Shown here one piece after another: positions 6,474-55,509 of a DNA stretch of 64,000 nt; the stretch's first letter is position 1; each line of letters starts with the position of its first letter. The notes under the pieces are model-generated. The model was not told the DNA's origin. It saw only the letters and a list, made by a program, of their open reading frames with translations, and did not search any database. Source of the DNA: Bdellovibrio sp. NC01 (lineage in GTDB: Bacteria > Bdellovibrionota > Bdellovibrionia > Bdellovibrionales > Bdellovibrionaceae); the NCBI RefSeq assembly GCF_006874625.1, contig NZ_CP030034.1, positions 2,232,001-2,296,000 on the forward strand, in the 5' to 3' direction. A program made the translations under genes and the position numbers.

Positions 6474-6657
6474 GTTGGCCTCCGGTAGGTACCGTCTATC
6501 ATTGGATTTGGGGTTTGCAAAATTAATTTAACGAACCTCGCAATGGCCATGGTTTTTATCGCTCCGCAAATCTAATCTTCATTGCCTTTTAATGAGACAC
6601 ATTAGACATAAACAAATTACTTTTAAGTAAACAAAAGTTTGTTCCGATCTAACGAAT

Positions 6658-8145
6658 ATGACCAAATTACTTTCTAAAAAACTTCTGGCTACTCTACTGT
6701 TCTGCTGCGCAATCCCTCTCTTGGGGGCATTGGCCGCTATTGGAATGCAGAGTTACAATTCGAGCAAATTTACATCAACACTGGAAGATCTATTCAAAAA
6801 CTCCCAAATAGAATCATACAAATTAACACTAACCTACCTATGCCCGCGACTTTATGATTTAAATCAAGACCAATTCAGACAAGCGGTAAAAGAAAGCTGC
6901 GATATAGATTCAGAGCTTAGAGATTTTGAAACTCTTTGTTTTGCAACTACAGGCTTTACACTTTTCTCACTAATTATTTTCAGTTTACTGGGATGGGTCA
7001 CAAAAACAAATCGATTTATACATCTTATCATGTTCCGAATTGGCGTTTTCGCCTGCATTGGACTCGTTTGTCTATCAGTAATCACGAATGCCATTGTGTT
7101 GGTACTCGGTTCATATTTTATTCCTGCCTATTTCTGGTCGAGATATTTTCCAAAACTGACAGGACTACTTGCGATTGGTGCAGCCTGGATCGTTTTTAAA
7201 ATATGTAGGGACCTATTCAGAATTCTCTCAAAGCCAAGCATAACCACGATAGGCAAACGACTATTCCCATCCGATCATCCTAAACTTTGGGAAGCTGTGC
7301 GCGCTCTCTCACATCAAGCGCAAACCACGGCACCGGACAATATCATTATCGGTCTTGAACCCAACTTTTTCGTTACAGAAGCTGACGTTCAAACACTCGA
7401 TGGAAAATGTAAAGGTCGAACACTATTTATTTCTTCGTCAATCATGAAACTGCTTTCAGTGGAAGAGTTTAAATCTATCCTTGCTCATGAATTCGGACAT
7501 TTTAGAGGATTAGATACAAAGTTCTCCTTACACTATAATCCGGTATTTAATAGACTAAATCGAACTCAGGAATCACTTTCATCTGAGAATAAAAGCTATC
7601 TTAAGTATGGTAGCCTGAGCGCAATGCCTGCGCTATTCATTGTCGATTATTTCGCTACATGCTTTAGGGCTTCCCATGCATTTCATAATAGGCAGCGTGA
7701 AGAGGCCGCAGACGAACTAGCAATTCAACTGACAAGTGCAAAAGTTTTTTCGTCGGCTCTCTTGAAAGCAACAGCAGCTGACGAAATTTACGCAATTGTA
7801 AATGAACGAATTAAGTCACTCGCTAATGAAGAAAAAGTTTTATCAAATATTCCAGATGCTATGCTCAGAGGTATAGTCGCGATTGAAAATAAAGAAATAC
7901 TAGCCATGATTGATGAAAAAGCGACGCCTCATCCATTTGATTCACACCCCGCAACACTGACGAGGGTAAGTCGAGCTGGCTTAGATTTGAACGTTATCAG
8001 TTTTAAAGATATCCAGCCGTCCGCTTCGTGCTACCTCGAGAATAGCCAGGAAATTGAAGAATTCTTAACTCACATTCGATATCTAGAACTAGGGCGACAA
8101 GGGTTGATTGATTACGATAAAATCTTTGGCAAACAGTCCGCGTAA
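6658..8145 (+). CDS. M48-family membrane metalloprotease
   Basis: A 495-residue integral membrane protein with a zinc-peptidase domain. Hydrophobic segments lie near residues 10-28, 95-115 and 120-185. The HEFGH motif is at 277-281 and the third zinc ligand is probably E348 in the REEAADELA segment, the usual M48 arrangement seen in HtpX. Unlike HtpX, the catalytic part comes after a long membrane region. Codons such as AGA, ATA and CTA are commoner than in neighbours and the gene looks A+T-rich, which suggests acquisition. No clear ribosome site precedes the ATG. It probably cleaves membrane or periplasmic proteins; substrate unknown. Confidence 0.85.
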   Translation: MTKLLSKKLLATLLFCCAIPLLGALAAIGMQSYNSSKFTSTLEDLFKNSQIESYKLTLTYLCPRLYDLNQDQFRQAVKESCDIDSELRDFETLCFATTGFTLFSLIIFSLLGWVTKTNRFIHLIMFRIGVFACIGLVCLSVITNAIVLVLGSYFIPAYFWSRYFPKLTGLLAIGAAWIVFKICRDLFRILSKPSITTIGKRLFPSDHPKLWEAVRALSHQAQTTAPDNIIIGLEPNFFVTEADVQTLDGKCKGRTLFISSSIMKLLSVEEFKSILAHEFGHFRGLDTKFSLHYNPVFNRLNRTQESLSSENKSYLKYGSLSAMPALFIVDYFATCFRASHAFHNRQREEAADELAIQLTSAKVFSSALLKATAADEIYAIVNERIKSLANEEKVLSNIPDAMLRGIVAIENKEILAMIDEKATPHPFDSHPATLTRVSRAGLDLNVISFKDIQPSASCYLENSQEIEEFLTHIRYLELGRQGLIDYDKIFGKQSA

Positions 8146-8210
8146 AGAGATCGCGTATTCTGTTTAAAATGTTTCAATTTATCAAAGATTTTATTCACAA
8201 TAATCCCTAA

Positions 8211-9566
8211 CTACCCTGCTCTTCTAATCAGGGGATTCAATTTCAGAAGCATCATCAAGGGATACCCGTCCCCTTCGTTGATCTTTTTCGACAGGAACGT
8301 TTTGAATGTTCCATCAAACTCGACTCGCTCTTTACCCAATTTAATTGTTAGGGCGTCGTCGAGTTCTTGTGCGAGTCTTATGATCATAGGTTCTTCCTTC
8401 ATTTTCACTGCAGCGGGTTTATTAGGAAAACCTTTTTGATCCATACGCTCATGGGACATCAGAATCATATCTTTGATCAGATCATCTAAAGGAATGCGCT
8501 TCGAAAGAATTTGGTTAAGACCGTAAATAGGATGCTTCATGTATTCCATGCGCTCTTCACCCGTCATGTGAGCTACGTTCCCGGTGCGAATTTTTCGACT
8601 GACCTCTGGGGAAACCAAAATCAAACCAATATCGGCAAGCAAACCGCCCATCATCGCTTTCGGAGCGACCGCCGGAGAAATCTTTTCCGCAAGCATTCCC
8701 GCATAGGCTGCGACTGCTGTACCGCGCTCAACCGATCCAAAATCTCCAATCGAGGAATTATTCACGGCCTCCCACGGCGCCATGACTTCTCTTAAAGAAA
8801 CTAAGAGATCTGCACAAAATTTCTCACACAAAGCATACAATGTTTTACCGGCGGCAAAAGAGGTCGAAGTCGTTTGATCGCTGATCAGAATGACCAGATC
8901 TAAGAACGCTTGCTGTAGTTTTAAAAAATTCGCGCGACAGCTTCGCGCACCCGCATTGTCATCGCGAGCTTGAAATTTTTGAATATATTCAACCCACGCA
9001 GATAGGTCGTTACGATGAGTATAAAGTTCTTTCGCTTCGGCGTATTTTATGATGAAAGCATTGTCGATCTTTGAACCTGGCTTATAAACTTTTAAAAATT
9101 TTCTATTCATCGGCATCAACATGTAAAGATGCCCGTTGATGCTTGATTCAGGTACCAAATCGACAACTTTCACAGGAATGAATGCCGACTTAATAACCTG
9201 GCTTGCTACGAATTCCAATTTACTGTTCGTCGTGAACTCGTTATCAAGCATGATCAGATTCGCACCTGATTTTTTTAATAACTCCATTTCATTTGGATCG
9301 ACCTTAGAATTTAAAATTGAAATGATGTAAGAGCGATCCATCATCTGGCGCGCCACTTGAATCGTGCCCGCCGCCTCATGGATATTTTCAAATTTGGTGC
9401 AATCTAAAATGAAGCACTTAATTGTTGGTGCGTGCTCGCTTTGTTCAAAGAAATCTTCCGAAGATCCAAAGTGAGCATATTGAAAATCGAAGTCTGCGCA
9501 CAATGTGCGGCAGCGTTCGATGAAACTTTCATTTTTAGAGATCGCGACTAAATCTAACTGCTTCAT
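8211..9566 (-). CDS. Degenerate HD-GYP-domain protein
   Basis: A 451-residue cytoplasmic protein. The C-terminal part (from about 230) has the HD-GYP fold pattern, but the key HD pair reads A311-D312 (GLLADIGLI) and the GYP motif reads GFP (HERMDQKGFP, 372-381). H345 (MKHPIYG) and H372 remain. The N-terminal 120 residues look like a pseudo-receiver: FILDCTKF sits where the phospho-acceptor would be. HD-GYP enzymes hydrolyse cyclic-di-GMP with a metal centre whose HD His is a ligand, so this one is likely inactive and may be a sensor or scaffold. It is monocistronic, with its 3' end facing the M48 gene. Confidence 0.82.
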   Translation of the reverse strand: MKQLDLVAISKNESFIERCRTLCADFDFQYAHFGSSEDFFEQSEHAPTIKCFILDCTKFENIHEAAGTIQVARQMMDRSYIISILNSKVDPNEMELLKKSGANLIMLDNEFTTNSKLEFVASQVIKSAFIPVKVVDLVPESSINGHLYMLMPMNRKFLKVYKPGSKIDNAFIIKYAEAKELYTHRNDLSAWVEYIQKFQARDDNAGARSCRANFLKLQQAFLDLVILISDQTTSTSFAAGKTLYALCEKFCADLLVSLREVMAPWEAVNNSSIGDFGSVERGTAVAAYAGMLAEKISPAVAPKAMMGGLLADIGLILVSPEVSRKIRTGNVAHMTGEERMEYMKHPIYGLNQILSKRIPLDDLIKDMILMSHERMDQKGFPNKPAAVKMKEEPMIIRLAQELDDALTIKLGKERVEFDGTFKTFLSKKINEGDGYPLMMLLKLNPLIRRAG

Positions 9567-9689
9567 GCCTCAAAGCATATTTGCAGATCAGATTTTTAAA
9601 AGAGGACATCATCAAGATCTCTTGAATTCTAGTCTCTTTGCCGAGGACACGGCATGGACATTTTGAGTATTTTCATATTTCGGATGATT

Positions 9690-10610
9690 TTATAAGCCCA
9701 GCGCATCCATCTTTGGCTTTTCATAGACGTCGTCCTCGCCTGGATAGCGAAGTTCGGCATCGTATTTACCCGATTCTTTTGCAAGTGCCCACAGCAAACT
9801 TTGACCAGAAGGCATACTCTTAGGTTGTTTGGCAAAAACTGGATCTTTGAATGCCTCTTTGGCGTCAATCAACTTCCAACCTTTTGTTTCAAACATCGTT
9901 AGAAGATCATCAAGATAAAGTGCATTCAGTAACTTGTAGTGAACAAGCAGTGTGTGCTTAACCTCACGGCCCAAAACTTTTTTTGAAAGATTATTGTAGT
10001 ATTGCGCTCGATCCCAGATGTGCTCGAGATAGTAATCACGATAAGGTTTTAGATCGGCGTTTGGATCAGCCGCGAGCTTACTTCTCATCCTTTGATCGAT
10101 ATACCAATCAGACGCATCAATCGTGACTTCGCCAAGACGATAACCATGCGCTTTTAACCATCCACGGAATTGATCGCGCTTCTCGGGAGTATCGCCTTCG
10201 GCAAGCATTGGGAAGCGGAAAATCTTTTCAAAGCCGGGATTATCTTTTAAGACAGCCTCGCACTTTAGTACTTGTGCTTTTTCATCTTCAAGACTCATCT
10301 TGGCGTTGTAGGGCTTATGATCGAACGTGTGATTGCCAATCATGTGGCCCTGATCGCTCCACTGCTTTAAAAGCTCACGATCACGATTGGATTGAATATA
10401 CTTGCCCACGACAAACAAAGTGGCCTTAATCTTGTGCTTTTTTAGAACAGCTAAGATCGCGTCATTTCTTTGTTGAGCATTGAGTTTTGTTTCTTCATAA
10501 ACGTCGAAATCGTCCATGGTAATACTGATTTCAGCGGCAAATGACTTCGCTGTGCTGAGACTTAACAAAACTATGGCTGCGATAAATTTAAGCTTCATAG
10601 ATACTTTCAT
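9690..10610 (-). CDS. Secreted polysaccharide deacetylase (NodB domain)
   Basis: A 306-residue secreted CE4-family deacetylase. A signal peptide (KFIAAIVLLSLSTAKSFA) precedes the NodB motifs: TMDD with catalytic D33 and metal ligand D34, then GNHTFDH with metal ligands H94 and H98, and RFPML as motif 3. Family members remove N-acetyl groups from peptidoglycan or chitin-like sugars. Bdellovibrio is known to deacetylate prey wall, so a cell-wall role is plausible but inferred. The start lies three bases after the stop of the upstream GNAT gene with AGGGA inside that gene, so the two form an operon. An alternative ATG is at 10598. Confidence 0.86.
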   Translation of the reverse strand: MKVSMKLKFIAAIVLLSLSTAKSFAAEISITMDDFDVYEETKLNAQQRNDAILAVLKKHKIKATLFVVGKYIQSNRDRELLKQWSDQGHMIGNHTFDHKPYNAKMSLEDEKAQVLKCEAVLKDNPGFEKIFRFPMLAEGDTPEKRDQFRGWLKAHGYRLGEVTIDASDWYIDQRMRSKLAADPNADLKPYRDYYLEHIWDRAQYYNNLSKKVLGREVKHTLLVHYKLLNALYLDDLLTMFETKGWKLIDAKEAFKDPVFAKQPKSMPSGQSLLWALAKESGKYDAELRYPGEDDVYEKPKMDALGL

Positions 10611-10613
10611 AGG

Positions 10614-11054
10614 TCAATCCCTGCGCATGATCATAAAGGTTTTGTCTGAAATCTTACGGTACTCCTGAATGCGATCTTGCAAAAATGCAGGCGCATCCGT
10701 CTCTCTGACGACTTTAAAATCAATCAAACCGTAGAAATTCCCCAAGTGCCCGTACGGAATACAGTATGTTTCTTTGATATTGTTATGCTTAAGGTATTCC
10801 GCGAAGCTTTCAAGAATTTTCGCACCAATTTTCTGCGCGCGTAACGACTCCTGCACAATCATACTTCTTAGCAGTGGCGTATTTTCTTCCACACAAAAAC
10901 GACAAACACCGACAATTTTATCCTCTATGAAAGCTGCAAAGAACAAGTCCGAAGGACGAGCTCGATGCGTTTTACCTTCTTGTTCATAAAATGGATCAAC
11001 GATGGAAGCAGCTTCTGATCCAGGAATCAGTTGAATGCGGACTGTTTTATTCAT
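10614..11054 (-). CDS. GNAT-family N-acetyltransferase
   Basis: A 146-residue single-domain acetyltransferase. DKIVGVCRFCVEE is strand 4 and the following LLRSMIVQESLRAQKIGAKIL is the acetyl-CoA pyrophosphate-binding motif A, although the usual Q/RxxGxG/A loop is loosened to RAQKIGA. HLGNFYGLIDFKVV is the C-terminal motif common in GNATs. It is cytoplasmic and first gene of an operon with the secreted deacetylase, an intriguing acetyl-transfer/acetyl-removal pairing, but the substrate is unknown. Confidence 0.82.
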   Translation of the reverse strand: MNKTVRIQLIPGSEAASIVDPFYEQEGKTHRARPSDLFFAAFIEDKIVGVCRFCVEENTPLLRSMIVQESLRAQKIGAKILESFAEYLKHNNIKETYCIPYGHLGNFYGLIDFKVVRETDAPAFLQDRIQEYRKISDKTFMIMRRD

Positions 11055-46408: not shown

Positions 46409-47716
46409 CTATTTCTTTAAGGCTTTAGTGAAAGCCTGCAAACAACGCCCGCGCGCTTCAACGTGTGCGATCATGGGTTCAGGATACTTGTCTGTGTGCA
46501 GCTCGGGTATCCATTTCTCGACATATTTTTGCTTAGGATCAAACTTCGCTTCTTGCGCTTCCGGGTTAAAAATTCGGAAGTACGGAGCCGCATCACAACC
46601 CGATCCCGCTGCCCATTGCCAATTCCCATTATTTGATGACAATTCATAGTCTAATAATTTTTTAGCGAAGTATCTTTCGCCTTCCGACCAATGAATCAAT
46701 AAATGCTTACAAAGAAAACTTGCCACCACCATCCGTACACGGTTGTGCATAAAGCCCGTTGCATTTAACTCGCGCATGCCTGCGTCGACCATGGGATAAC
46801 CAGTCGTTCCCGTGGCCCATCGCTCGAAATCTTTTTTCGATTTGCGCCACTCGATCTTATCGTATTCTGGACGGAAACTTTGTTTTTCAACTTGCGGAAA
46901 ATGCCACAGAATCTGCATGAAAAAATCGCGCCAAATAAGTTCACTCAACCACACGTCTGAATGTTTTTTGGCTTCACGTGCAAGTTCGCGAATACTGACT
47001 GTGCCAAAACGAAGATGCATACCGATGTGAGTTGTGCCTTTTTCTTCAGACGGGATATCACGCTTTTCCGCGTACTCTTTTAAAGTTTTACTTGAGATCT
47101 TGTTAGATGGAAGCGCGATCTTTGTCGTCTCAAAGCCCATTTGCTTCAAAGAAATAAGTGGCTCTGCCTTTTTGATTTGCGCATAAGATTTTTCGTATTT
47201 CTTATTCGGGTAAGATTTTAAATAAAAGCTCGTCAGATTTTCCAGGACTTTATTTTTATAAGGAGTAAACACCGTATAGGGTTTACCCTGCCCCGTAAGG
47301 ATCTCATCTTTTTCAAACAAGCATTGATCTTTGTATGTTTTAAATTCGATCTTATGTTTCGTCGCAAGCTTGGCGACGTGTTCGTCACGCGCGCGCGCAT
47401 AAGGTTCGTAATCGTGATTCGTGTAAATTGCCTCGACAGGAAGCTTTGCAAACAGCTCTTTAAAGACCTCTAACGGCTTTCCATGACGCACTAATAAATC
47501 AGAGCCCTTTGCTTGAAGCTCCTCTTTAAGGTTCGCGATGGTTTGATAAATGAATGTTACCCGGGGATCTTCCCGGTCCTCGAGTTTTTCAAGAATCTCT
47601 GTATCAAAAATAAAGACTGGTAGAACGTTATCGTGTTCTTTCAGGGCGTGAAAGAGCCCCGCGTTATCATTCAAGCGCAAATCGCGTCGAAACCAAAATA
47701 GAGTGAGCTTTGTCAT
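46409..47716 (-). CDS. phrB: Deoxyribodipyrimidine photolyase (cryptochrome/photolyase family)
   Basis: A 435-residue class I-type photolyase that repairs UV-induced pyrimidine dimers with blue light. LTLFWFRRDLRLNDNAGLFHA starts the antenna domain; the FAD domain has TTHIGMHLRFGTVSIREL, WLSELIWRDFFMQIL, GYPMVDAGMRELNATGFMHN and the NGNWQWAAGSGCDAAPYFRI signature with the Trp electron chain region. A longer frame runs to 47923 but ATG 47716 begins the conserved fold. Followed by the epimerase-SRPBCC gene seven bases later. Confidence 0.95.
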   Translation of the reverse strand: MTKLTLFWFRRDLRLNDNAGLFHALKEHDNVLPVFIFDTEILEKLEDREDPRVTFIYQTIANLKEELQAKGSDLLVRHGKPLEVFKELFAKLPVEAIYTNHDYEPYARARDEHVAKLATKHKIEFKTYKDQCLFEKDEILTGQGKPYTVFTPYKNKVLENLTSFYLKSYPNKKYEKSYAQIKKAEPLISLKQMGFETTKIALPSNKISSKTLKEYAEKRDIPSEEKGTTHIGMHLRFGTVSIRELAREAKKHSDVWLSELIWRDFFMQILWHFPQVEKQSFRPEYDKIEWRKSKKDFERWATGTTGYPMVDAGMRELNATGFMHNRVRMVVASFLCKHLLIHWSEGERYFAKKLLDYELSSNNGNWQWAAGSGCDAAPYFRIFNPEAQEAKFDPKQKYVEKWIPELHTDKYPEPMIAHVEARGRCLQAFTKALKK

Positions 47717-47801
47717 ATTAGAAGTCCAGTTGCAGTCCGCCTTTAAAGCGCTATACTTTAGAGGTTTAACATTGCCACCAAACAAGGTAAAACAAGTCCT
47801 G

Positions 47802-49208
47802 ATGGATGATAAAAAGTCTGCCAAAAAGCAAAGTCCACCAAAGGGGATCGATAAAATCAAGTCCTCAGTTTTTTCGCGCAGTCTGTCCATCGCAAAATTG
47901 ACCGTACAAACCGGGGCTTCCATCGCAAGTCACGGCATCACGACCGCCCTTAAAAGCAAAGAAGACAAAGAAGCCATTTGGAAAAAGCTGTTACAAAATC
48001 AGGCTTCGTTAATCAGCTCTGAATTGGGTGAACTGAAAGGCAGCTTGATGAAAGCTGGCCAGATGCTTTCGATGTACGGTGAACATTTCTTGCCGGAAGA
48101 AGCCAATCAGTTATTAAAATCTTTGCAGTCGGACTCGCCTCCCCTGACTTGGGCAGCGATCGAACCGACCTTAAAGAAAAATCTTTCGCAAGAAAAGTTG
48201 GATTTATTAGAGATTGAAAAAGAAGCCTTGGCTTCCGCTTCAATGGGGCAAGTGCATCGCGCGCGCATCAAGGCGACTGGTGAATCGATCGTATTGAAAA
48301 TTCAATATCCTAATGTCGATCGCGCAATTGATAGTGACTTAAAGGCGATTAAAACTTTACTCAGCACCATGAAGCTGCTTCCTAAGGATTTGAATTTGAA
48401 TCCTTTGTTCGAAGAAGCGCGTGAAATGTTAGTGCAAGAAACTAATTACGAACTTGAAGCCACTTTGACCGAGGAATATTACGAACGTCTGAAGGGTGAC
48501 ACTCGTTTTGTCGTACCTAAAATTTATCGTGAATTTTCTGGTCCTAAAATTTTAGCTTCTTCCTTTGAGCGCGGTTTGCGCGTTGATGATCCATTAATTC
48601 AAAGTCTTTCTCAAGAACGTCGCAATAAGCTTGCGATGAATTTCTTGGATCTTTATTTCAAAGAAGTCTTTGAATGGGGTGTCGTGCAAACAGATCCTCA
48701 CAGTGGTAACTATCGCATTCGTATTGATCCGCAAGGGCATGATCAACTAGTACTTTTCGATTTTGGCGCGACACGCTCTTATCCTGAAAGTTTTTTAACT
48801 CCCTACCGTCGCATGATCAAAGGCGCCCTATTTAACGATCATCAGGTCTTTACTCAATCAGCGATTGATTTGAAATTTATTGAACACGGAGACGACACAG
48901 AGCTTCGTCGTATTTTTGAAGAGTTCTGCTTTGAAAGTGTCGAACCGTTCATTGAATACAATGATCCACGCAATACGCATGGCCAGATTGATCAGAACGG
49001 TTTGTATGATTGGAAGAATACGGATTTACCACAGCGTTTGTCGCGTAAAGTATTCCAAATTATTCGTCAGTTTAAATGGCGGACTCCCCCACGCGAGATT
49101 ATTTTCTTAGATCGCAAAACAGGCGGCGTTTTTATTTTCTTATCTGTTTTAAAAGCAAAAATTCGTGGTCGTGATGTGTTACTGAAATACATGGATCGAA
49201 TTTCTTAA
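47802..49208 (+). CDS. ABC1/UbiB-family atypical kinase
   Basis: A 468-residue protein of the ADCK/UbiB family, which supports ubiquinone synthesis or lipid handling. The KxGQ motif is SLMKAGQMLSMYG, the Ala-rich nucleotide loop is ALASASMGQVHRARI, the ATP-binding Lys is in IVLKIQYP, VQTDPHSGNYRI is the catalytic loop and LFDFGATRSYPES the metal site. The N-terminal 50 residues are Lys-rich. I chose ATG 47802, since a start at 47703 would run into the divergent photolyase. Eight bases before a TlpA-like gene. Confidence 0.9.
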   Translation: MDDKKSAKKQSPPKGIDKIKSSVFSRSLSIAKLTVQTGASIASHGITTALKSKEDKEAIWKKLLQNQASLISSELGELKGSLMKAGQMLSMYGEHFLPEEANQLLKSLQSDSPPLTWAAIEPTLKKNLSQEKLDLLEIEKEALASASMGQVHRARIKATGESIVLKIQYPNVDRAIDSDLKAIKTLLSTMKLLPKDLNLNPLFEEAREMLVQETNYELEATLTEEYYERLKGDTRFVVPKIYREFSGPKILASSFERGLRVDDPLIQSLSQERRNKLAMNFLDLYFKEVFEWGVVQTDPHSGNYRIRIDPQGHDQLVLFDFGATRSYPESFLTPYRRMIKGALFNDHQVFTQSAIDLKFIEHGDDTELRRIFEEFCFESVEPFIEYNDPRNTHGQIDQNGLYDWKNTDLPQRLSRKVFQIIRQFKWRTPPREIIFLDRKTGGVFIFLSVLKAKIRGRDVLLKYMDRIS

Positions 49209-49216
49209 AGGATTTT

Positions 49217-49735
49217 ATGTTGTCTTCTGTGCTGAAGTTTTTTGTTTTCTGGGTTGTGAGTTGTTTCGCATTTAGTTTCAACGCCCATGCTGCCAGCAAT
49301 CCCCCGACTGTCGAATTTAAATCTATTCCAGCCGTGGCATTGGGGTCATCAGTAAAACCAAAAATCGAAGACCTTAAAGGCAAAGTCGTCGTCGTGGATT
49401 TTTGGGCTTCATGGTGCGCGCCCTGCAAAGAAGCGCTTCCGCACTACAACAAGCTATTTGAAAAGTACAAAGACCAAGGCGTGGTTTTTATTGGTGTGAA
49501 TGAAGACGACGACATTAAAGAACGTGACGCTTACTTAGCGAAAGAAAAAGTCTTATTCACAGTCTTAGCAGATTTAGATAAGCAGATGGCGAAAGACTTT
49601 CAGGTCGTAGCCCTGCCAACTTTATTCGTGTTCGACAAAAAATTAAAACCTGTGACTCTTTATCGCGGTTTTGACGACAAGAAGCCACAGGTCCTAGAGG
49701 AAAAAATCAAGGAACTTTTGAAGGGTCAGAAGTAG
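49217..49735 (+). CDS. TlpA/ResA-like periplasmic thioredoxin
   Basis: A 172-residue secreted thioredoxin-fold protein. A signal sequence (LKFFVFWVVSCFAFSFNAHA) leads to VVVVDFWASWCAPCKEALPH, with the redox pair C67 and C70, and VVALPTLFVFD with the cis-Pro. The DDDIKERDAYL insertion is typical of TlpA/ResA. It reduces disulfides in the periplasm, for example in cytochrome c maturation. AAAGGA precedes the ATG. Probably co-transcribed with the UbiB-like gene (eight-base gap). Confidence 0.92.
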   Translation: MLSSVLKFFVFWVVSCFAFSFNAHAASNPPTVEFKSIPAVALGSSVKPKIEDLKGKVVVVDFWASWCAPCKEALPHYNKLFEKYKDQGVVFIGVNEDDDIKERDAYLAKEKVLFTVLADLDKQMAKDFQVVALPTLFVFDKKLKPVTLYRGFDDKKPQVLEEKIKELLKGQK

Positions 49736-49749
49736 AAACTACTTCTGAC
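49725..49749. terminator. Symmetric hairpin containing both convergent stop codons
   Basis: GTCAGAAGTAG-AAA-CTACTTCTGAC is a perfect 11-bp stem. The TAG of the TlpA-like gene (49733-49735) and the minus-strand TAG of the EF-hand-like gene (49739-49741) are both inside. The T content after it is low, so strength is uncertain. Confidence 0.6.
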
Positions 49750-50986
49750 TTAACTGCACATTACGTGGCGACAACCATACGTCGACGATATCGCCTTTTT
49801 TCAATTTGCCTTTGGCATCTTTATACCAGAAGTCTGCGTATTCACGCTCTTCCGCATACATGCCTTGAGCAACGATACGATCATCTTTGTAGTTCAAAGA
49901 GATTTTTACGACCTTCGACGAAAGCTTCACTAACTCATTTGGTTGAGAAACACCATCACCATTTTTATCACTCCAAAGAACCAAATTTTTGAAAGCTTTA
50001 TCGCGCTTGTCGATAACGCCATCATGATTTGAATCCAAAGCTTTCAGAGCCTCAAAACCATTTTTATATTTCTCATCGTTACCAAAAAGTTGATCCTTTT
50101 TAGTAATTTTGCCAGAACCATCATCAAGAGCTAAGAAATAACCCACGTGATTGGCTTCAGGCCATGATGTTTTAGCAAATTTATTCAACGGGAAATCAGT
50201 GATGTTCGAAAATGCAGGACGCGCATCATCGAAGAACACCATCAACGGCGAATAATAACCTCCGCAGAAACCCGTTTGCCCCGGGAACGATACGTTAATT
50301 TCTACACTCGATTTATCCGATGCGACATTCACTTGACCCAATGTCGCACTAATCGGACCGTTTTTTCCCATGTAATCGCCACAGGCCTTCGCCGGAACAT
50401 ACGACGATACACCATACGCACCATATGCTGATCCATCACAAGTGCTCACCTTTTGAGTGAAGGAAACTGTAGCTGGATTTACGTAAACTGCACCTGGATC
50501 GGCATCAACGATATTTCCCGCAGCATCCACGGATACTTTACTTGGAAAAGGCGAGTTGATAACGACTGTGTTACCATAGATCGCTGCATTTCCTCCGGCA
50601 GGAATATTTAATTTTTCTGCTGAAATTGGATTTACAGAACTTGGATTAAATCCTAGAGCAGAAATGATGATAGCTGGATACCAAACGCCAATATGATAGC
50701 TTTTGCTACCAACAACCAAATCAAAATCCGCATAGATTTCAGAACTAGGAGCAACCGGATTCGTCACACCACGCAAGTTCGTACCGAAGCACGAGTTCAC
50801 AATCTTCACTTGCATAGTCGCGTTCCCTGAACGAGTGACCAGCCCCGACGCCGGTGCGGAAACGACTGACTCTCCCGACGTTGCAGTATTCACTGACATC
50901 GGAAAACTTCTTGTCTGTGCGAACGCGAGACTCCCCGAAAAAACCAAAGCAGCACTCAGTGCTCTTCGTAAATAAACCGTCCCCAT
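49739..50986 (-). CDS. Secreted EF-hand/dockerin-like calcium-binding protein
   Basis: A 415-residue secreted protein; the signal peptide (RRALSAALVFSGSLAFA) follows an ATG at 50986 with a strong GAGGGGG ribosome site. Near the C-terminus two DxNxDG calcium loops are seen: LDSNHDGVIDKRD (318-329) and WSDKNGDGVSQPNEL (340-351), spaced like an EF-hand pair. The long N-terminal part is beta-rich with several Cys (NSCFGTN, KACGDY, GFCGGYY). It is the last gene of the minor-pilin operon (22-base gap), so it may act with those pilins or be exported by them. Confidence 0.8.
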   Translation of the reverse strand: MGTVYLRRALSAALVFSGSLAFAQTRSFPMSVNTATSGESVVSAPASGLVTRSGNATMQVKIVNSCFGTNLRGVTNPVAPSSEIYADFDLVVGSKSYHIGVWYPAIIISALGFNPSSVNPISAEKLNIPAGGNAAIYGNTVVINSPFPSKVSVDAAGNIVDADPGAVYVNPATVSFTQKVSTCDGSAYGAYGVSSYVPAKACGDYMGKNGPISATLGQVNVASDKSSVEINVSFPGQTGFCGGYYSPLMVFFDDARPAFSNITDFPLNKFAKTSWPEANHVGYFLALDDGSGKITKKDQLFGNDEKYKNGFEALKALDSNHDGVIDKRDKAFKNLVLWSDKNGDGVSQPNELVKLSSKVVKISLNYKDDRIVAQGMYAEEREYADFWYKDAKGKLKKGDIVDVWLSPRNVQLSQK

Positions 50987-51008
50987 ACATTCCCCCTCAA
51001 CTAACAAC

Positions 51009-52067
51009 CTAAAGACCCGCAGTTTGCGTTTGAGTCGCTAAGTCCTGTGGTTTGTTAATTTTAAAATAAATCATTCTTTTCAAAACAGAATCGCGAGTCA
51101 TCACAAAGCTACAAACTTTATTCGCAAGCAGCACCTTAGCTGGCGCGCTGGCTCCGCGATAAATGAGCTTATAGAAGTTGGAATGACGATATGGTTTTTT
51201 AGTCGTATCACCATTCGGATAACACTCTGGATTTTCACTTAGCACTGGCTCCATTGTGTATTGTAAAACTTTAACTGCGCGCAAACGTATAACCGATTGG
51301 CCCCCGCCAACCGATGGAACATTTCTTAAAAATGTATCTGCGTCAGGAATAGTAGCCCCTGTATCTGGCTGATTTTTCTTTAACAAAGAAGAGAATGGTT
51401 CACCCACAGGTTGCAAAACCAGCCCTTGAACCGAACCAACAAAAGTTGGACTTCTTGGCGGAGTTTGCATATCCAAAGTGCCATCCGATTTAGTCGGGCG
51501 AACTTTGGCCAAAGTATCAAACATCAACATCATGCCCGTCGTCCAAAATCCCGGGCGAACAGCACCAACCCAGTTATTTCGATTTACAGAAACGAACGTC
51601 AATGGCGCCGCTTTATTAAAGTCGGCTGGAGCCGAACCAATCACGTAAGCCGCAGTTGGATCGTAGTTCATCGTCGCTCCCGCAGCCAAATCTTGCGATA
51701 CCACACTTACCGTTTTATTTACGGTTTCGGATGACAACGTGATTGTTCTGGTCAAACTACCAGCCACAGAGTTTGCAGGAAGATCCGGATAATAATCGAA
51801 GAAATTCAATCCATTATCATCGTTCATCACAATGTTATTATACGAAGGCTCAACTGTATTAAAATCACCGAAAAGAATTCTCTCGGCCTGCATCTCATCG
51901 ATAGATTCATCCAATTGCTTCTTTAAAGCCATTTGATCTTTTGTTGCCGTCACTTGCGTCGCGACTACTGCCGCAGTTACAACTGCCGCAAGACCGACAC
52001 CAACAATGACTTCCGGAAGCGTAAAACCTTTATTATTTTTGAGGGTGCTATTAAATTTTTTAATCAT
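51009..52067 (-). CDS. Minor pseudopilin, PilW-like
   Basis: A 352-residue protein with a type IV prepilin leader: Lys-rich start and NNKGFTLPEVIVGVGLAAVV, with cleavage expected after the Gly and Glu at mature position 5, then a hydrophobic helix. The rest is beta-rich with two late Cys (PECYPN, NKVCSF). Its size resembles PilW. The start overlaps the upstream stop as ATGA. Probably part of a pilus tip or priming complex with its two neighbours. Confidence 0.87.
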   Translation of the reverse strand: MIKKFNSTLKNNKGFTLPEVIVGVGLAAVVTAAVVATQVTATKDQMALKKQLDESIDEMQAERILFGDFNTVEPSYNNIVMNDDNGLNFFDYYPDLPANSVAGSLTRTITLSSETVNKTVSVVSQDLAAGATMNYDPTAAYVIGSAPADFNKAAPLTFVSVNRNNWVGAVRPGFWTTGMMLMFDTLAKVRPTKSDGTLDMQTPPRSPTFVGSVQGLVLQPVGEPFSSLLKKNQPDTGATIPDADTFLRNVPSVGGGQSVIRLRAVKVLQYTMEPVLSENPECYPNGDTTKKPYRHSNFYKLIYRGASAPAKVLLANKVCSFVMTRDSVLKRMIYFKINKPQDLATQTQTAGL

Positions 52068-52531
52068 TTTGCACTCACCACAAATGTATAATCGCGGAAT
52101 TCCTCATTGTTCTTTTTCCAAGATTCATGAGTCAATCGCATGGTTACTTGATAAAGACCTCTGTATTGTTCCAACGGCTGAATAACGAAACCATAAGTGC
52201 CCGCACACTTAGGGCATTGAGCGCGGGTTGTGATAATACCATTATCCCAAGCCATCGGAAGCGTATCGACATTCAGACTTTCTTTAGTTCCCGTCTTATA
52301 GTCAAAATTCACCTGATAGTTTTCAACGCCGGCCTTGATATTCTCTGCAATGTCGTTAATCTGTCTTTCGGTAGAAGACAATACGACAGCACTCTTCGTT
52401 GAGTTTCGAAGAGAAATCATACCACCCGTAAAAGTGAATCCGACTACGGTCAACAAACCTAAGCCCACAAGAGCTTCAACGATGGTCTGACCTTTATTAT
52501 TTGCAATTGATTTATTTGTTTTAAAAATCAT
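52064..52531 (-). CDS. Minor pseudopilin, PilV-like
   Basis: A 155-residue protein with prepilin leader NNKGQTIVEALVGLGLLTVV: cleavage after Gly, mature residue 1 Gln instead of the usual Phe, and Glu at mature position 5. A short globular domain follows with a CPKC pair (AQCPKCAGTYG), which may bind metal or form a tight disulfide. Both starts and ends overlap neighbours as ATGA, so the three pilin genes are translationally coupled. Confidence 0.86.
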   Translation of the reverse strand: MIFKTNKSIANNKGQTIVEALVGLGLLTVVGFTFTGGMISLRNSTKSAVVLSSTERQINDIAENIKAGVENYQVNFDYKTGTKESLNVDTLPMAWDNGIITTRAQCPKCAGTYGFVIQPLEQYRGLYQVTMRLTHESWKKNNEEFRDYTFVVSAK

Positions 52532-55509
52532 ATGCCACTCTCTCTTGATTGCTCAACTACATAGAAACGAACAAGTCTTTTCTTACACGTTGTTGTCGAC
52601 TGAGTTGCACCCGCCACCATACCGCAATCTGGATCGACTGCAGTCCACTGGAACGGATTTGCCTGGGCTCTTAAACTAATCGCATTACACGATCTGACAT
52701 CAGAAACTTCTTGAACAGAAGGAATTGGATGCCAGATTGGCGATTTCATAACTGAATCACAAGAAGCTGCAGGATTACTAGTCGGTTTCAAAATACCTGC
52801 CTTACGTAATTCTTTCGTTGCCTGTGGAAGATAGATGGAACTCCATTGAATGCCGGCAACATAAGCTGACGGATCGATTTTTAATTTACCCACAATAAAT
52901 GTACCGATGATACGCAACGGATTTGTACGAGCATTGATCGTCAAACTATCACAGGCATAAAAACCAGTTACTAAGTTCGCATTCGAAGGAATAATGCAAT
53001 TACCTACGATCGAAGCGACTTTCCAAACAGGTGTCGCACCGAAAACTAAGTCTTTGTTATAGACAGGATCATTTGCCGGATCTGCAGATCCATCGATACC
53101 TGCAAAGTTCCATGAATGGCGAGTCGTCGATGCGAAGCTGACGTTCCAGTCAGCACCACCAAACGATTGCGAAGACAATTTACTTCTGGCATCTTCACAC
53201 TGCGCATTGAGGTCATCCAAACTCATGCCCAAGCCTTCGATATCTTCGGCAGGACTATTACTTGTTGCGGCTACGTTTGTTGGATTCGTTAAATAAGCAC
53301 CGCCGATGCCGAAATTCAAATAACCTTGCAAAGCAGTGTTTTCGCCAATCGATAAGCCTGGGATTAACTTGCTGTTATAATATGTGCTGTCATATCCAAG
53401 AACACCGATGGACGGACCCGTCGACGTCAACTCACCTTTAGAATTGATAAAATGATTCGCATTAACTGTCGTAACATCAAGCTCAAGCTTGTCACCGTAA
53501 TAAGTTACACGCCCCGTCCAATTGTTAATTTTCTTAATTAAACCTTTCACATCCACCGTTACTTGTGGCGGATTCTGAACGGCATCATTATAATTGTTGA
53601 GCGCGTTTTGAGCAGTGTTAATCGCGGCATTCGCATCTGAAATAGCCTTATCCTGATTAGGGATTTTATTTGCACTCAAATCACTAATAGTTGTCTTCAA
53701 ATTCGAGATCTGCGCATTTAAAGACGCAATCGTGTCGGGATTCTGATACTTAGAATCATCCACTGGAGTCGCCGATGGCGAAGGACTTGGTGACGCTTCC
53801 GCCACTGGCGTTTCCGTAGGAGATGGCGACGGCGTTGGAGTTGGACTTGCCTCAGCTGCAGGTTCACGATTATCAGCCGTTTGAGTTGGTTTAACCGGTT
53901 TCGCTAATTCTGCGTCGAGCGAAGCCTGCGCTACGCTTAACGAAGACTTCGCAGTTGATAATTGTGCATTTAGATCGTCCATTCCGGTATTTGCCGTTTT
54001 AAGACTATCTCTTGCAGTATTTAGACTTTTATTCAGCGACGCTAATGCCGATGCAGAGCCAACAACTGGCTGAAAAATCATCTGAGAGTTCAACGGCATA
54101 GCATGTGTGGCGGTTTTACCGTCGAACAAGAAAGTAAGATTAATGACAGCGTCTTCATTATCACCAGAATACTTAGCTACACCACTCCAATTGCTGCTTG
54201 TAATTGCCGCTGCAGGAATATAGTTACCTTGTTCTTCGAATGAACTACCCGTATCGAAAAATAATTTATACGAAACTTTACTTGTATTACCGCTATTAGA
54301 AGAGGTGATTTTAGAGGCGCCCAGTTTTGTTTTAGACGCAGTTTCAACACTCGCTTGGTTTTTTGACAACGTTGCACACATTGCCAAAAGTTTTGTATCA
54401 GGAACATCACCGGTATTAATTTTCGCAAAATATTTTAGACCCGCGTCTTCACCGCCGTCATTTTCAATGCCCTTCAAAAAGCCACCAAAGCTTGGCGAAT
54501 CAGCCCAATAGCGATCTGAAAGACCACCGGCAGATCGAGGCACATATAGATCATCTTCACCACCAGAATGCAGTGACTTCACCCAACCGTTACCGATGTA
54601 CACGCGATCCGCAAACGTTACCGCGGAATATTTTGAATTTTCAGGTGTTGCAGATTCATCTTTAGATAATTGTGGCAGATAAATATTGTTATTAACAAAC
54701 ACAGGACTTAAGAAAACAAGACCGGGACCCTTCCCAAGATCTTTACGATTCGTAAACTGATGAAAGCCGATATCGCCAAGATCATATGTCGCATCATACG
54801 TGTTATCCATATGAAGATCTTTTGGCGCAAGCAACGCAAAAGAACCAACTTCACGAGGATAAATTGCAAGGGATGATCTTAATGAAAGATCCACGTTGTT
54901 CATCGAAATCACGTTCTTTGACGAATCAATCAGAGCAATTTTTACCGTAAGGTATGATTCACGACCCGCGCGTGGCAAATAGGCGCTTGTATCCTTTGTC
55001 AGCTCAACAGTTACGCCAGCAACTTCAACGATTTTACCTGTCGCTTCGTCCTTCACCGTTTTTAATTTTTGCATTACAGGGAATAGAGGATGCACTGAAG
55101 AAAGCAAACCTGGATTCAGAGTAACTTTGAAAGATTTTAACGCCACATTATTGAGATCAACAGAGCCTACGTTTGCACCAGCAGCAACCAGAGTTCTAAT
55201 CGCGTTCTCTTGGTCATTGGACATGATCACACGTTCAACGCTAAATGGACTTGCCAGATTACAAGTTGAATCATTAACAAGCGTACCATCCGTGAAACAC
55301 CATTTTTGACGGACACCGAAGATCACGTAGTCCATCGTACTGTTCAAAGCAAAACGGAGGTTCACAGCATTCACTGTTTTTGTGACTTGTTTCTTCTGGC
55401 CGATAACGTAATTCGTCAGGAAGTAAAAGGAGATACTCATCACAGCTGTGGCTGCAAGGACCTGCATCATCACGCTACCGCGGTTGTTGCGGAATATTGT
55501 GGTTCTCAT
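52528..55509 (-). CDS. Giant minor pilin, PilX/GspK-like, with coiled coils
   Basis: A 993-residue protein with a prepilin-like start RNNRGSVMMQVLAATAVMSI: cleavage after G11, then a hydrophobic helix. Mature position 5 is Gln rather than Glu, a trait shared with tip pilins such as GspK. A large beta-rich body is interrupted by two coiled-coil stretches (about 500-545 and 590-640) flanking a Pro/Ser/Thr-rich linker (about 545-585, TPTPSPSPTETP). AGGAG lies before the ATG. It heads the operon and probably caps a pilus or pseudopilus as an adhesive tip. Confidence 0.82.
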   Translation of the reverse strand: MRTTIFRNNRGSVMMQVLAATAVMSISFYFLTNYVIGQKKQVTKTVNAVNLRFALNSTMDYVIFGVRQKWCFTDGTLVNDSTCNLASPFSVERVIMSNDQENAIRTLVAAGANVGSVDLNNVALKSFKVTLNPGLLSSVHPLFPVMQKLKTVKDEATGKIVEVAGVTVELTKDTSAYLPRAGRESYLTVKIALIDSSKNVISMNNVDLSLRSSLAIYPREVGSFALLAPKDLHMDNTYDATYDLGDIGFHQFTNRKDLGKGPGLVFLSPVFVNNNIYLPQLSKDESATPENSKYSAVTFADRVYIGNGWVKSLHSGGEDDLYVPRSAGGLSDRYWADSPSFGGFLKGIENDGGEDAGLKYFAKINTGDVPDTKLLAMCATLSKNQASVETASKTKLGASKITSSNSGNTSKVSYKLFFDTGSSFEEQGNYIPAAAITSSNWSGVAKYSGDNEDAVINLTFLFDGKTATHAMPLNSQMIFQPVVGSASALASLNKSLNTARDSLKTANTGMDDLNAQLSTAKSSLSVAQASLDAELAKPVKPTQTADNREPAAEASPTPTPSPSPTETPVAEASPSPSPSATPVDDSKYQNPDTIASLNAQISNLKTTISDLSANKIPNQDKAISDANAAINTAQNALNNYNDAVQNPPQVTVDVKGLIKKINNWTGRVTYYGDKLELDVTTVNANHFINSKGELTSTGPSIGVLGYDSTYYNSKLIPGLSIGENTALQGYLNFGIGGAYLTNPTNVAATSNSPAEDIEGLGMSLDDLNAQCEDARSKLSSQSFGGADWNVSFASTTRHSWNFAGIDGSADPANDPVYNKDLVFGATPVWKVASIVGNCIIPSNANLVTGFYACDSLTINARTNPLRIIGTFIVGKLKIDPSAYVAGIQWSSIYLPQATKELRKAGILKPTSNPAASCDSVMKSPIWHPIPSVQEVSDVRSCNAISLRAQANPFQWTAVDPDCGMVAGATQSTTTCKKRLVRFYVVEQSRESGI

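Follow-up and report, generated by a model that had tools for sequence, protein, structure and literature searches.

How Bdellovibrio recognises and grips its prey is still an open question, and two published studies point at an operon without saying what it is. We have analysed this operon in Bdellovibrio sp. NC01, within a window of 64,000 nucleotides (contig NZ_CP030034.1, positions 2,232,001 to 2,296,000), in which all coordinates below are counted unless another locus or genome is named. It is a cassette of four genes, all on the minus strand, coding for a large pilin-like protein, two smaller prepilins and a secreted protein with calcium loops, which we call the calcium protein. We consider it likely that these genes form a pilus-tip complex similar to GspIJK or PilVWX, with a calcium cap which is not PilY1, and that this complex serves for prey attachment. 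The coordinates, strand and protein sizes given in an earlier note, made from the sequence alone, agree with our check of the open reading frames (ORFs):

52528..55509, minus strand: large pilin-like protein in the GspK/PilX position (ORF, 993 amino acids; orthologue of Bd2212)
52064..52531, minus strand: small prepilin in the GspI/PilV-like position (155 amino acids; ATGA overlap, N_methyl in the family; orthologue of Bd2211)
51009..52067, minus strand: prepilin in the GspJ/PilW-like position (352 amino acids; N_methyl over the cut-off; orthologue of Bd2210)
49739..50986, minus strand: secreted calcium-loop protein (415 amino acids; orthologue of Bd2209)

The arrangement is as compact as the same note had described: two ATGA overlaps join the three genes with prepilin leaders, and the ATG of the calcium protein is found 22 bases past the stop of the pilW-like gene. 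This protein would have 422 amino acids if an upstream TTG start were used, instead of 415 from the ATG. An Rfam scan gave no match, and promoter and terminator scans gave scores at the shuffle mean.

The four genes are found in the same order and on one strand in all 23 cassettes from the 20 loci which we have examined in the window's genome and its relatives. Since they recur as a unit in every cassette, their grouping is not due to chance. The window's own genome contains a second, diverged cassette (L026, 31–43% identity) and only two copies of the calcium protein, one in each cassette; tandem pairs of cassettes are found in three relatives (L036, L041, L042). In a set of 17 named loci, all four genes are present in 15, and the other two (L046 and L047) run off the contig end. 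The counts from 17 and 20 loci are not independent, because four contigs (L048, L049, L051 and L054), to judge by their length, are common to both sets. In locus L059 the fourth gene is located upstream.

Matches to the large protein are found in 24 of 39 genomes, the window's own included; those in genome G014 cover low-complexity sequence only. In a sample of 290 genomes from the phylum its profile matches 58, which contain 84 large-pilin loci. A gene for the calcium protein is present on the same strand, at a distance of 5 kb or less, in 81 of these 84; the nearest one lies upstream in 11 of the 81, three of which are neighbours in tandem cassettes. As for the remaining three loci, one has the calcium protein at a contig edge (G195) and two belong to genomes which are 75–76% complete. 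A query with a single protein gave no match to genome contigs; the alignment query did match.

We take genome G005 to be B. bacteriovorus HD100. Its orthologue of the large protein is found at 2110075–2113047, and the HD100 orthologues of the cassette are Bd2212–Bd2209, with a paralogue in Bd2726–Bd2723. HD100 position 2110823 lies in Bd2212 (PMC3013116), and the published sizes of 995, 153, 328 and 414 amino acids (PMC12034629, Table 3) agree with those in G005, where gene 4 has 418 amino acids from its first start. The role in prey attachment which the earlier note had proposed agrees with a published mutant of an orthologue: Bd2210::tn has lost prey attachment, by flow cytometry and blinded microscopy, and also killing and rounding (PMC6561027). 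Transposons in Bd2210, Bd2211, Bd2212 and Bd2723 have been linked to loss of predation, and both HD100 operons are expressed in attack phase (PMC12034629). In the same paper, AlphaFold-Multimer predicts for both operons a four-protein complex whose hub is the large protein (ipTM 0.852 and 0.837). These complexes, Bd2209–Bd2212 and Bd2723–Bd2726, come from operons which are orthologous and paralogous to ours and have the same gene order (PMC12034629; PMC6561027). Type IV pili serve for initial recognition and attachment, and their retraction is not needed for invasion (PMC4237445). As told in that paper, anti-PilA blocks attachment, so that the tip mutant and the pilus blockade share a phenotype.

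Both small prepilins of the window have Glu5. The Pfam N_methyl profile matches the pilW-like protein with 23.1 bits, over the cut-off of 21.2, and the pilV-like protein with 14.1 bits, below it; among family members, it is found in 15 of 20 pilW-like and 8 of 20 pilV-like proteins. No Tad families (TadE/Flp) are listed for these two families or for the large-pilin family. The best matches of both small pilins in a profile search of PDB sequences correspond to pilin N-termini only. When the pilW-like profile is compared with other pilin stretches searched from this genome, its top match is GspJ. The minor-pilin operon suggested in the earlier note is thus borne out, as a conserved cassette with two N_methyl/Glu5 prepilins and a large pilin without Glu5.

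The main features of the large protein are as follows:

55306..55476, minus strand: residues 12–68, pilin-type alpha-1 helix after Gly11, without Glu5 (model and alignment)
53905..54054, minus strand: hairpin helix A, residues 486–535 (model)
53740..53904, minus strand: Pro/Ser/Thr-rich apex of the hairpin, residues 536–590 (pLDDT <50 over 541–584; alignment)
53575..53739, minus strand: hairpin helix B, residues 591–645 (model)

We have used two alignments of this family, A1 with 21 rows and A5 with 18 rows, 15 of which reach the N-terminus. Gly is present at position -1 in all 21 rows of A1 and in those 15 rows of A5. Glu is never found at position +5, neither in the 21 rows of A1 nor in the rows of A5 which reach it, so that the lack of Glu5 seen earlier in the window, where this residue is Gln, extends to the family. 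The model (pLDDT 74, pTM 0.53) has a helix at 3–68, in which Gly11 is followed by 57 helix residues, and two beta regions parted by a helical hairpin. The coiled coils which had been read around a Pro/Ser/Thr-rich linker appear in it as the two arms of this hairpin (486–535 / 591–645), with the linker at the apex. In A1, mean pairwise identity is highest in the N-terminal helix and in the C-terminal 163 residues (0.63 in both); the hairpin is the least conserved part (0.23–0.27, helix A 0.23), and its apex can be as short as 1 residue or as long as 101. Of the ten cysteines, nine are found in all 21 rows. Judging from the alignment, this pattern agrees with a base and core which are kept constant and a protrusion which is free to vary.

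Comparisons with known structures add little outside the hairpin. Foldseek with the model gave nothing at E <= 0.001. The VIA-align matches listed, with Z up to 12.4, sit on the hairpin (about 483–647), which is a common arrangement; GspK, PilX and other pilins are absent among the matches listed, which excludes nothing. The structure prediction proposed in the earlier note has given a hairpin and a long helix, and no PDB relative beyond the hairpin among the matches listed. A profile search of PDB sequences finds mostly coiled coils, and weak Pfam/NCBIfam matches to its coiled coil were set aside. Since the Pfam N_methyl profile does not match the 993 amino acid protein, the case for its prepilin leader comes from the invariant Gly, the helix at 3–68 and the operon. 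Locus L066 contains a third large-pilin set (6525–10638, about 3934525–3938638 of G000:C1), with proteins of 847, 164 and 360 amino acids; the large one also lacks Glu5, the set has no calcium partner, and the 847 amino acid protein does not match the profile of the large protein.

The calcium protein had been described as an EF-hand-like partner with two calcium loops. The loops are present, but there are three, not two, and they are found within a domain which resembles the self-processing module (SPM) of FrpC from Neisseria:

about 50918-50986, minus strand: signal peptide (judged by eye)
49754..50248, minus strand: FrpC SPM-like domain, residues 247–411 (VIA-align and hmmsearch)
50246..50251, minus strand: Ser246-Pro247, in the place of FrpC Asp414-Pro415 (VIA-align and alignment rows)
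50090..50125, minus strand: EF-hand-like loop 1, degenerate in the window (alignment)
50000..50035, minus strand: EF-hand-like loop 2 (alignment)
49934..49969, minus strand: EF-hand-like loop 3 (alignment)

A profile made from 21 homologues finds the FrpC SPM first among PDB sequences (hmmsearch, E 1.7e-20), and the next protein has E 0.025. Foldseek with the model (pLDDT 77) finds two FrpC entries (E 5.8e-9 and 2.3e-8). VIA-align places residues 247..411 of the model on residues 1..174 of the 6SJW chain (Z 18.6, rmsd 2.5, 153 aligned); beyond the two FrpC entries, the next Z is 4.3. According to both model and profile, the C-terminal half of the calcium protein has the SPM fold. For the N-terminal half, the VIA-align matches listed only reach Z of about 4, and many of them are antibody domains.

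The FrpC module covers residues 415–591 (PMC7078468). Residue 1 of 6SJW is FrpC Pro415, in agreement with D462 at chain position 48. Because Pro247 falls on residue 1, Ser246-Pro247 takes the place of FrpC Asp414-Pro415. This Ser, where FrpC has its scissile Asp, is found in all rows of our two alignments, A2 (21 of 21) and A6 (17 of 17), which share some rows. The clip-and-link reaction needs an Asp-Pro bond, so the module is probably non-cleaving and structural, as far as sequence can tell. Trp275 and Trp338 are invariant in the same rows and correspond, by profile alignment, to FrpC W451 and W519. The EF-like loops are mostly kept, with loop 1 degenerate also in some other rows. In the place of FrpC D419, which belongs to a fourth calcium site, there is a Phe in 21 of 21 rows of A2 and 16 of 17 rows of A6. 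The calcium protein thus shares with the FrpC SPM (PDB 6SJW/6SJX; PMC7078468) the fold, both core Trp and the three EF-like loops, and differs from it in the scissile residue and in the loss of the fourth site; while FrpC is an RTX exoprotein, the calcium protein has, by eye, a Sec-type signal peptide. The FrpC module folds upon calcium binding (PMC7078468), which suggests, by analogy, that the calcium protein is a calcium-folding cap.

The profile of the calcium protein matches 85 of the 290 phylum genomes, compared to 58 for the large pilin. The extra matches cover just the SPM-like part, some of them within long ORFs, and this fold is therefore used more widely in the phylum. Directly upstream of the cassette in locus L060 (6367–8598) there is a protein of 743 amino acids. 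By eye, its start resembles a lipobox, and its SPM-like module keeps more of the PLxLD motif.

The comparison with calcium-binding PilY1 made in the earlier note holds as an analogy only, and its remark that no PilY1 propeller is evident here stands, as the propeller family PF05567 has no match in the calcium protein. Both proteins have an EF-hand-like calcium site and are encoded beside minor pilins, to go by their sequences. PF05567 was found over the cut-off in 0 of 24 and 0 of 290 genomes, but no control genome matched either; there is one sub-threshold match (G030, 19.5 bits). We also considered whether anti-correlation would reveal a replacement of PilY1, and dropped it, since the family matched neither the 290 genomes nor a control. 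In general, the cassette resembles PilV/PilW/PilX plus PilY1 of type IVa pili and GspI-J-K of the type II secretion system (T2SS) in having two Glu5 pilins and a larger pilin; GspK has also lost Glu5, and PilY1 is a calcium protein in the operon. On the other hand, the large protein has 993 amino acids compared to 434 for GspK in this genome, the cassette has no FimU/GspH, and the calcium protein has no propeller.

Which filament would carry this tip? In this genome, the T2SS has its own GspG-H-I-J-K set, a Tad cluster comes with small pilins of its own, and PilA is elsewhere (names according to our reading of the ORFs). The cassette is spare to both systems, because each has its own pilins. 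N_methyl is found in 13 places in this genome. A type IVa pilus is the more likely carrier, ahead of Tad. Co-occurrence was dropped as a means of choice: PilT (271) and CpaB (282) are near-universal in the 290 phylum genomes and cannot discriminate between filaments.

This last result weighs against our reading, together with several others. Pilin families match none of 18 members of the large-protein family at E 0.01; with no pilin profile and no listed PDB relative outside the hairpin, its status as a pilin is indirect. We found no FimU/GspH-type adapter within the cassette. The top match of the pilV-like profile, in the same pilin stretches, is the Tad major pilin Flp (20.8 bits), which keeps a Tad filament under consideration. 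Genomes G007 and G014, from the same genus and 96% and 100% complete, have no cassette, yet they have PilT and CpaB. Transposon phenotypes may include polar effects, and mutants from which pilT was deleted are reported to remain able to invade in liquid (PMC4237445).

The match to Flp also favours a Tad (type IVc) tip of the Kil type, in which the trio would correspond to KilN-KilM-KilL of Myxococcus and would cap an Flp pilus, not a PilA pilus. The Kil tips, which are needed for prey killing, are paralogous trimers, each with a large, a medium and a small minor pilin, of which the large one is at the extremity; the extra domain of KilN4, described in terms similar to our model, combines a pair of long helices with a large beta scaffold (PMC12075869). 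A figure of the same paper (Fig. 7b) includes a Tip from B. bacteriovorus, identified with Foldseek, which may be the trio discussed here. Nevertheless, KilLMN are homologues of TadE/F/G, while our pilV-like and pilW-like families list N_methyl and no TadE/Flp, and the available text of PMC12075869 describes no calcium partner for them. We consider such a tip unlikely.

Two further explanations dispense with a pilus tip. The gene order and sizes recall GspK-I-J, and the best match of the pilW-like profile is GspJ, as expected for a pseudopilus, either an alternative T2SS GspI-J-K or a dedicated secretion system, with the calcium protein as its substrate. T2SS substrates are secreted proteins which often bind calcium. 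This is highly improbable, as the T2SS is already provided with a full set, including its GspK of 434 amino acids, one would not expect a substrate to keep a one-to-one cassette through duplications, and the attachment phenotype fits less well. The leaders could also be simple anchors of a periplasmic or outer-surface complex outside any filament: no pilin profile matches the large protein, and its invariant cysteines (9/10) would suit a large periplasmic protein. We give this very little credence, in view of the invariant Gly at -1, the two partners with N_methyl leaders, the published model of the complex (PMC12034629) and the attachment phenotype.

A pilus tip could work as follows. Prepilin peptidase would cleave all three leaders, and the three alpha-1 helices would form a bundle, like GspI-J-K or PilV-W-X, and prime the pilus. 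The large protein would have no Glu5 because the filament has nothing beyond it. Together with the 50-residue helical hairpin, its beta domains would be the spearhead, on which the calcium protein would dock, without self-cutting, and fold or stiffen once the tip meets calcium outside. The exposed surface of the tip would bind the prey, and paralogous and tandem cassettes would provide alternative tips. Tentatively, and with more doubt than for the tip itself, we may extend this to much of the Bdellovibrionota: swappable tip cassettes in which a disarmed FrpC SPM replaces PilY1, loose in the low-calcium periplasm and folding on the giant pilin at external calcium to arm the tip, with paralogous and tandem cassettes diversifying the prey range.

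What has been published covers the genes and the loss of attachment. The disarmed SPM is new here; neither it nor the phylum-wide linkage, nor a reading of Bd2209–2212 as a pilus tip, was found in the literature searched, with the reservation that the Tip in Fig. 7b of PMC12075869 may be the same trio. The word "pilin" does not occur in the main text of PMC12034629, and this paper, in the text available to us, identifies neither a trimer at the tip nor the SPM fold, and neither the loss of the Asp nor the spread of the cassette through the phylum. If the operon is seen as a pilus tip whose cap folds with calcium, the attachment mutant, so far without explanation, becomes part of a machine which experiments can address, and the known requirement for pili is tied to a defined surface facing the prey. 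This would also be a case of an RTX self-processing fold reused minus its cutting residue, and the cassette may be used as a marker of tip diversity among predators.

Some neighbouring genes should also be mentioned. A TlpA-like periplasmic redoxin (49217–49735) is convergent with the cassette, 3 bases from its end. A redoxin adjoins the cassette in 15 of the 20 loci, and also, with 30% identity, in L044. Because the large pilin has nine invariant cysteines, a role of the redoxin as its disulfide helper is conceivable. Further on, the ORFs listed for a photolyase-like protein (46409–47923) and an ABC1-kinase-like protein (47703–49208) overlap at their divergent starts; the true starts probably lie further in.

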